Assembly (NCBI RefSeq): GCF_900112605.1
Contig: NZ_FOMJ01000012.1
Coordinates: 1-46,749, forward strand
DNA: 46,749 nucleotides
Origin: Thiohalospira halophila DSM 15071
Lineage (GTDB): Bacteria; Pseudomonadota; Gammaproteobacteria; Thiohalospirales; Thiohalospiraceae
Direction: 5' to 3'
The translations under genes were made by a program, and so were the position numbers. The notes below the pieces were generated by a model. The model worked only from the letters and a program-made list of their open reading frames with translations. It searched no databases and had not been told where the DNA came from. This document shows, piece by piece, positions 10,345 to 17,162 of this stretch. How positions within the stretch are numbered: the stretch's first letter is position 1; the number at the start of each line of letters is the position of its first letter.

Positions 10345-10396
10345 GACGCCCCCGACCCCGACCGGTCTCTTGCCGCTCGGGGTCGGGGGCGTCTTT
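10345..10396 (+). terminator. Strong intrinsic terminator of the sHdr-lip operon
   Basis: Perfect 17-bp GC-rich arms (10345-10361 with 10377-10393), a 15-base loop and TTT. It marks the end of the sulfur-oxidation operon. Confidence 0.85.
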
Positions 10397-15489: not shown

Positions 15490-15640
15490 GTCCACTCCTG
15501 CCTTGGAACGCGCTTGTGCGTCTCGTTGGTGGCTTTGCGGGGCCGGGCAGCCGGGAGGGGTCCCGGGGAGCCCTGCCCGACTCCCGGCCCCGGCGGACCG
15601 CTAGGGTCCATCCCGGCTATCCCCGACCTTTGCGGTAGAG

Positions 15641-15722: not shown

Positions 15723-15832
15723 GTGACGGGGTGGGGTGGCCCCTGGCGGGGCCTCGACAGCAGGGATGCTGTCGTGGAGCCTACATGGACGTATGTACGG
15801 CGTCCCCGCCAGGGGGCACCCCACCCCGTCAC
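15723..15832. repeat. Large near-perfect palindrome with two internal hairpins
   Basis: 29-base arms (15723-15751 and 15804-15832) pair with a single mismatch. The loop contains a perfect 8-bp hairpin (15755-15762 with 15767-15774) and a 5-bp one (15782-15786 with 15793-15797). The whole could fold as a branched RNA or a DNA cruciform. It occupies most of the gene-free interval 15496-15865, which otherwise shows a TATAAT at 15641 and a GC hairpin (15538-15547 with 15583-15592). Confidence 0.8.
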
Positions 15833-15865
15833 CCCGAACAAGGCCCCCAATCTCCAGGGAGCACC

Positions 15866-16267
15866 ATGGATTCCGAAACCTTTACCGAACGTCTGGAAGG
15901 CATCGACGAGACTATCGCCGAGCTGGAAGAGCGCATCAACGAGGATGCGGACCTGGATGTCGCCGAGGTCCTGCCCAGCGCCATGGACGTGGTGGAGGAG
16001 CTGCTGCGCTCCTATGCCGCCCGGGAGGGCAAGGAACTCCCGGAGGACGGCGAACTCCTGGACATCCAGAAGGCCTTCGTGAAGGGCGAGCCCTCCCTGA
16101 ACGCCGTCCGCGACAACGTCCGCGAACTCATCTATTACCATAACTGCCTCGAAATGGACCGCCGCGACGCCCTGCCCGAGAAAGCGGGCCGCATGGCGGT
16201 GCGCACCGCGCGCCACCTCTATCTCTACCTGCGCAGCCGGGCCGAGCAGGCCGGCTACCTGGTCTGA
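15866..16267 (+). CDS. Small acidic helical protein ahead of the AAA+/VWA pair
   Basis: A 133-residue, almost entirely helical, acidic protein. The N-terminal half resembles a coiled coil ([20 protein letters not shown]) and the C-terminal half is basic ([21 protein letters not shown]). The ATG at 15866 follows CAGGGAG. It is 28 bp upstream of the CbbQ-type ATPase gene and on the same strand, so it may be a third component or adaptor of that chaperone pair. The family is not recognised. Confidence 0.6.
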
Positions 16268-16295: not shown

Positions 16296-17162
16296 ATGAA
16301 GCAGATCATCGACCGCCTCCGCGGCGTCGAGCGTGACGCCGTGCAGAAGCCGGGCGAGGAGGGCGACGCCCCCTTCTACGCCGTCCAGGGCGGGGAGGAG
16401 CGCGTCTTCCGCGCCGCCTGGGAAAAGCGCCTGCCGGTGATGCTCAAGGGCCCCACCGGCTGCGGCAAGACCCGTTTCCTGGAGTACATGGCCAACCAGC
16501 TCGGCCGCCCCCTGGTCACCGTCGCCTGCCACGAGGATCTCACCAGCTCCGACCTGGTGGGCCGCTTCCTGCTGGAGGGCGAGGAAACGGTCTGGCAGGA
16601 CGGCCCGCTGACCCGCGCGGTGAAGGAGGGCGCCATCTGCTACCTGGACGAGATCGTCGAGGCGCGCACCGACACCACGGTGGTCATCCACCCGCTCACC
16701 GACCACCGCCGCGAGCTGCCGCTGGACAAGAAGTCCCAGGTCATCACCGCGCACCCCGACTTCATGCTGGTAATCTCCTACAACCCGGGCTACCAGACCG
16801 TCCTCAAGGACCTGAAACCCTCCACCAAGCAGCGCTTCATCGGGCTGGAGTTCGACTACCCCAGCGAAGCCGTGGAATGCGAGATCGTGGAGAAGGAGGC
16901 CGGCGTGGACCGCACCATGGCCGAGCGGCTGGTGGCCGCCGGCCGGCGCGCCCGTACCCTCAAGGACCACGGCCTGGAAGAGGCCACCTCCACCCGGGCG
17001 CTCACTTACGCCGGCCAGCTCATCAGCGCCGGCCTGGAGCCGGTGGAGGCCTGCCGCGTGGCCATGGTCTCCCCGGTGACCGACGACCCCGAGCTGGCCG
17101 CCGCCCTGGAGGAGATCCTCAACGCCCACTTCGACGACGGCGCCACCGAGGGCCATGGCTGA
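16296..17162 (+). CDS. CbbQ/NorQ-family MoxR AAA+ ATPase
   Basis: A 288-residue AAA+ protein. Walker A is GPTGCGKT (residues 52-59), Walker B is ICYLDEI, and a sensor-like VISYNPGYQ and the CbbQ C-terminal helical part follow. CbbQ/NirQ/NorQ/GvpN proteins pair with a VWA protein to remodel a target enzyme: Rubisco for CbbQ/CbbO, nitric-oxide reductase for NorQ/NorD. AAGGAGA lies upstream and the stop overlaps the VWA gene by 8 bp. No cbbLS or norCB is in the window, so the client is not certain, though an autotrophic sulfur oxidiser makes Rubisco likely. Confidence 0.88.

Follow-up and report, generated by a model that had tools for sequence, protein, structure and literature searches.

The window, i.e., the whole 46,749-nucleotide stretch of DNA that was analysed, comes from Thiohalospira halophila DSM 15071, and the genes and parts of the element described in it all lie on the + strand. 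A 110-bp palindromic element (15723..15832), oriented by its two CANGGANG sites, lies upstream of a small ORF, 33 bp from its ATG (15866), and this ORF is followed by a CbbQ-type gene. This ORF (15866..16267) encodes 133 amino acids, has no match in Pfam or NCBIfam, and has homologous DNA in the same place in genomes G030 and G037. The orthologous places in G030 and G037 are without the element, at a divergence too high to show the junction. Downstream of the element there is a Shine-Dalgarno-like CAGGGAG with a GGA core (15855..15861), read from the sequence, and a simple scan near the element called neither a promoter nor a terminator. The gene that follows encodes a CbbQ/NirQ/NorQ-type AAA ATPase (16296..17162; PF07728, PF08406), and after it comes an 845-aa ORF. 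The sequence-only reading had spoken of CbbQ/CbbO-type genes; the CbbQ part is borne out by PF08406, but the CbbO part is not, since the 845-aa ORF has no match in Pfam or NCBIfam. Two other inverted repeats occur in the window: an imperfect palindrome at 15538-15592 (27-nt arms, 78%), about 130 bp upstream of the element, and a 17-bp perfect inverted repeat at 10345-10393, whose 15-nt loop is not the core described below.

The element consists of a 5' arm (15723..15751) and a 3' arm (15804..15832), each of 29 nt, which pair with one mismatch in a copy-specific outer stem, and of a conserved 52-nt core (15752..15803) between them, which folds into two hairpins. Hairpin 1 (15755..15774) has the stem CGACAGC/GCTGTCG and the hexaloop AGGGAT at 15762-15767, which carries site 1 (CAGGGATG, 15761..15768). 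Hairpin 2 (15779..15801), in the form supported by covariation, has the stems GCC/GGC and TAC/GTA, the hexaloop ATGGAC at 15785-15790 and a 5-nt bulge at 15794-15798, and its site 2 (CATGGACG, 15784..15791) lies 23 nt from site 1; both sites equal the CANGGANG motif. The branched palindrome is thus as first described, down to the single mismatch and the two inner hairpins. It is the longest inverted repeat in the window (38 pairs in an inverted-repeat search), and its predicted folding energy is −58.3 kcal/mol as DNA (z −11.96) and −95.6 as RNA (z −10.22), with none of 200 shuffles equally stable in either case. In the minimum-energy fold of the window copy, hairpin 2 is paired otherwise, 6.4 kcal/mol better than in the covarying form.

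When the region is compared by blastn with its own genome, about 27 dispersed places are found, most of them matching the inner 50–60 nt only, and when these places are folded the same core appears in each, enclosed by a long stem of differing sequence. A covariance model (R1) was applied to 12 genomes, this one and 11 other Gammaproteobacteria, and gave 44 copies here and 132 in Stenotrophomonas maltophilia SJTL3; three genomes, among them Methylotuvimicrobium buryatense 5G, have at least 150 each, and the remaining seven between 13 and 90. The palindrome therefore belongs to a real, widespread repeat family, and with some 44 copies in its own genome the possibility that it is single-copy falls away. 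Matches occur in 39 of 185 sampled Gammaproteobacteria (E 1e-4, stricter filters), and a pattern scan of genome contigs gave at least 119 stretches; among the matches listed the titles are gammaproteobacterial, including Stenotrophomonas, Marinobacter, Rheinheimera, Methylomonas, Idiomarina, Aquisalimonas and others. The earlier suggestion of a repeat family of halophilic gammaproteobacteria therefore holds for the class, but not for a confinement to halophiles. No element was found in plasmids or phages by blastn, with short queries of limited sensitivity, nor in viral contigs by exact pattern search. In Rfam nothing rises above the gathering threshold, the sub-threshold matches being nearly all to microRNA models, and no paper describing the family was found in the open-licence literature. 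Three own-genome copies with variant cores and lower model scores (L247:13879-13997, +; L248:15092-15210, −; L242:3332-3445, +) keep two CANGGANG sites and near-perfect arms. In Stenotrophomonas, the copies L054, L055, L083, L096, L118 and L126 have 200–500 bp of flank in common, so that the repeat unit there is larger, and in some of them a hairpin-like GACAGTT...AAACTGTC stands just upstream.

Each copy has a conserved core of 51–54 nt within a near-perfect stem of 22–37 bp, and the core and the stem behave very differently. To exemplify, consider the four loci L002, L003, L006 and L007: their 52-nt cores are identical (100%), while the similarity of their arms is 0.45–0.66 against a shuffled mean of 0.57. 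At the inner arm positions of 30 copies, Watson-Crick pairs nevertheless make up 690 of 750. Where copies agree fully in the core but not in their long, perfect stems, a copying mechanism that links the two arms is called for. In subfamily B (11 own-genome copies, with GTCG in place of GTAG) the arms are partly shared and therefore look inherited. The association of core and stem is seen also when the core sequence is ignored. A sequence-blind search of 446,749 bp of genome for palindromes (minimum arm length 22 bp, no more than two mismatches) gave 16, and all 16 have a loop of 51–54 nt that consists of the core or of a variant core; the covariance model has 18 matches in the same DNA. Since there is no core-less long palindrome in these 446,749 bp, the core does not occupy pre-existing palindromes, and insertion into such palindromes is ruled out.

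The structure of the core is conserved by compensatory change. In an alignment of 80 distinct sequences, which was fitted to the model and hence leans towards it, 97.7% of the cells are paired and two-sided changes occur at 23 of 25 pairs; there are 608 two-sided cells against 161 in shuffles, with 0 of 500 shuffles as high. All seven pairs of hairpin 1 show two-sided changes, and so do two of the three pairs of inner stem 2, the latter from few independent events. Stem 2 occurs, with its loop kept, as TAC/GTA, GAC/GTC, CCC/GGG, CAC/GTG and TGC/GCA, and the outer stem of hairpin 2 as GCC/GGC, GCG/CGC, GCT/AGC and GCA/TGC. Both core stems thus covary, which disposes of the objection that the structure might not be conserved, and each loop sits on a short covarying stem, as is expected of a CsrA site. 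For a further set of extracted cores (A1), 76 of 127 were used: manual inspection removed 16 that were truncated or nested, 24 were nearly identical to others, and 11 of the remaining 87 were also left out. In some copies from Stenotrophomonas (L330, L331), methylotrophs (L045, L098) and Rheinheimera (L079, L088, L113), other hairpins are nested inside hairpin 1 or 2, and it looks as if the loops of the element were insertion targets.

CsrA/RsmA is a global regulator in many Gammaproteobacteria, usually with few dedicated decoy RNAs. In published work, its site is described by the SELEX consensus RUACARGGAUGU, by hexaloops and, for RsmE, by ANGGAN, and one dimer bridges sites 10–63 nt apart, best above 18 (PMC7652899); CANGGANG is likewise given as a CsrA/RsmA site (PMC4353343). 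Both core hairpin loops match the published site, with CANGGANG, extended to (A/U)CANGGANG(U/A), and GGA in an ANGGAN hexaloop closed by C-G, 23–24 nt apart on one strand. Two same-strand CANGGANG sites occur in 15 of the 16 sequence-blind palindromes, the sixteenth having one site and a variant, and of the 18 close CANGGANG doubles that the 446,749 bp contain, 17 belong to the element. In an independent set of 60 model matches from 18 genomes absent from model building, 44 have at least two exact CANGGANG sites, GGA is present in loop 1 of 58 and, in register, in loop 2 of 59, while the N positions vary, and the C-G closing pairs are present in 58 (loop 1) and 59 (loop 2). As the model itself leans to GGA, this set is independent in sequence only; the sequence-blind palindromes are free of the lean, and the A1 set is not counted for site 2, which was fixed by its search pattern. 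In the predicted folds the GGA loop of site 1 is accessible and site 2 is often occluded; the predicted probability of the site-2 hexaloop has a median of 0.19 in 60 copies, and it is 0 in the window copy, where site 2 is predicted to be occluded.

This genome has two CsrA matches, of which the one that was read is intact and keeps Arg44, the residue whose change is reported to alter RNA binding (PMC7652899). Among genomes of high quality, CsrA is found in 30 of 30 carriers of the element and in 116 of 132 non-carriers (one-sided p 0.03). With CsrA present almost everywhere, this association is weak, and three element-bearing MAGs (67–88% complete) have no CsrA match.

The mismatches in the outer stem show which strand matters. 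Under symmetric mutation, G-T and A-C mismatches should be equally frequent on the strand that carries GGA, but there are 123 G-T against 21 A-C overall: 23:5 in this genome (p 9e-4), 56:8 in 61 elements of other species, a set without duplicates in which the arms have at least 17 of 22 pairs (p 6e-10), and 44:8 in the independent set (p 4e-7; 52 of 60 used). In hairpin 1, the departures are 43 G-A against 3 C-T, from few independent events. Wobble pairs are thus tolerated on the GGA strand. From this follows that the GGA strand is either selected for pairing or made by fold-back copying, i.e., that it is the strand that is folded, as RNA or single-stranded DNA, or copied. The near absence of G-U cells had pointed to pairing at the DNA level, a reading that the same comparison overturns. 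Of the alternatives first offered for the palindrome, a structured RNA has the covariation and the one-strand mismatch bias in its favour; nothing speaks specifically for a cruciform.

The bias is present whatever the direction of the neighbouring genes, the G-T to A-C counts being 18:1 for sense, 20:3 for antisense, 17:2 for divergent and 9:2 for convergent surroundings. A cause intrinsic to the element accounts for this better than control of single genes would, and leader function alone does not explain it. The 25 own-genome copies (27 loci minus L010, L014 and L029, which have a motif mismatch, plus one further copy) are intergenic according to a home-made gene caller, with one predicted overlap (L013), which is probably a start-site error. 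Fifteen of them lie between codirectional genes, nine in sense and six in antisense orientation, eight between divergent and two between convergent genes. An ordinary terminator or the RNA leader of a single operon would account for the window copy, whose stable fold stands 33 nt before an ORF, but this is highly improbable, with about 44 copies, no terminator call and only two of 25 copies between convergent genes; a terminator is in fact rejected by the gene context. No gene family recurs beside the elements in the 119 loci listed, so that a regulator of a particular neighbour gene is likewise rejected.

At two sites in Stenotrophomonas (61 genomes searched, 30 loci read by eye, 28 with both flanks for the second site), genomes whose flanks are similar have different elements, down to the arms. 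Both arms change together, L213 being a mismatched recombinant, and several elements have been lost through deletion at short internal repeats (both by eye). Only deletions and replacements are seen, with no clean empty site and no target duplication at these sites, which therefore show fast turnover, not insertion. In type I alleles (L207-L218), the left flank TTCCGCGCG complements the right flank CGCGCGGAA, as seen by eye, the same right flank is common to other allele types (L219-L228), and the arrangement resembles a template switch. No transposase adjoins the element. The term mobile, used in the sequence-only reading, accordingly has only the dispersal of the copies and their turnover at fixed places to support it, with no clean insertion, target duplication or transposase found.

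How, then, are these properties to be combined? On what we take to be the best reading, the element would be a dispersed, non-autonomous repeat whose + strand is an RNA with two candidate CsrA/RsmA-type hairpins, a reading that we hold to be about evenly poised between right and wrong; its CsrA part is based on motif, loop, spacing, covariation and strand. We infer that copies would be transcribed and bind CsrA and that they may affect genes, and the way in which they spread is inferred as well. The long stem of free sequence would then clamp the two hairpins next to each other, where a single CsrA dimer could bridge them. The window copy would form part of the leader of the small-ORF/cbbQ operon, 33 nt before the start codon, from where it could bring CsrA near the GGA-containing Shine-Dalgarno sequence, while the copies throughout the genome would serve as CsrA docking sites or decoys. 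If this is true, dozens of dispersed two-site elements would change the number of CsrA sites in the cell, and insertion could bring many genes under CsrA control. Most likely the family encodes a putative two-site CsrA-binding RNA, and its copies are moved or renewed by some process. A stronger version, that a mobile family seeds two-site docking hairpins, with the stem rewritten at each site by fold-back copying, and so forms a self-spreading decoy array of tens to more than 100 copies per genome, we consider doubtful.

The same fold-back copying is central to a purely DNA-level explanation, which is possible, if on the unlikely side: the + strand of a mobile element would fold as single-stranded DNA, its GGA loops would be recognition sites of an enzyme, the arms would be made by fold-back synthesis at or after insertion, and the likeness to CsrA sites would be coincidental. 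This would account for the unrelated perfect arms around identical cores (L002, L003, L006, L007), for the absence of core-less long palindromes, for the exchange of whole elements, arms included, at the two Stenotrophomonas sites and for a bias that is independent of gene direction, and the one-strand G-T and purine-purine mismatches could be errors of self-templated copying. It leaves unexplained, however, that the two loops and the pairs closing them should fit CsrA sites with the N positions free, and it is at odds with the lack of a clean empty site or target duplication, with losses by deletion at short repeats, with the absence of a recurrent neighbour gene and with the partly shared, seemingly inherited arms of subfamily B. 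An improbable variant of mobility is that the element is a GTAG-tagged REP moved by a RAYT (Y1 HuH transposase). GTAG does stand beside hairpin 1 on the other strand of the window copy, and Y1_Tnp is commoner in carriers (26 of 30 of high quality against 85 of 132 non-carriers, one-sided p 0.012), a co-occurrence at least as strong as that of CsrA, so that it may have had a past role. A clear element, however, lies within 1.5 kb of only 1 of 29 Y1_Tnp loci, where about 2.3 are expected by chance; Y1_Tnp is not detected in 8 of 39 carriers, nor in 3 of 12 in another set; and the strand bias favours the strand without GTAG. The sole Y1_Tnp gene of this genome (L031, G000:C4:141433-141765) has a Bac_DnaA_C tail and no element within 1.5 kb, and the class with DnaA-type tails (2.1) is reported to be without REPs (PMC6006769). 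PMC3733652 describes REPs as repeats dispersed in Gammaproteobacteria and reports, for P. putida and P. fluorescens, degenerate GTAG-1 units that are attached to unrelated stem-loops; it also gives an unpaired terminal GTAG as conserved in more than 90% of members in most families. In the independent set GTAG is present in only 31 of 60 matches, where it covaries with its stem partner, and there is no flanking RAYT, so that in neither respect does the element conform to the GTAG REPs; the RAYT hypothesis has no local support.

Among known systems, MITEs such as ERIC are also short non-coding palindromic repeats. The ends of MITEs are conserved in sequence, whereas in the element it is the outer arms that vary, being unrelated between identical cores, and no target duplication is seen; by its ends the element is thus unlike a MITE. 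GTAG REPs, REPINs and BIMEs with RAYT are alike in being dispersed intergenic gammaproteobacterial palindromes with short conserved hairpins, but the element has no conserved GTAG and no adjacent RAYT, its core is set in long free stems, and its bias is to the opposite strand. Compared by description, the degenerate GTAG-1 units fused to stem-loops and the TIRs of TIRYT genes (Di Nocera 2013, PMC3733652) are possibly related, as double inverted repeats that P. putida and P. fluorescens carry in their hundreds; these flank tyrosine transposase genes, which the element does not. The Csr/Rsm decoy sRNAs (CsrB/C, RsmX/Y/Z) and the leaders of CsrA targets (PMC7652899, PMC4353343) share with the element the GGA in hairpin loops, the ANGGAN hexaloops and the presence of more than one site per RNA, spaced such that a dimer can bridge them. 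From these decoys the element differs in having two putative sites only, a copy-specific stem of 22–37 bp, and tens of copies dispersed over the genome.
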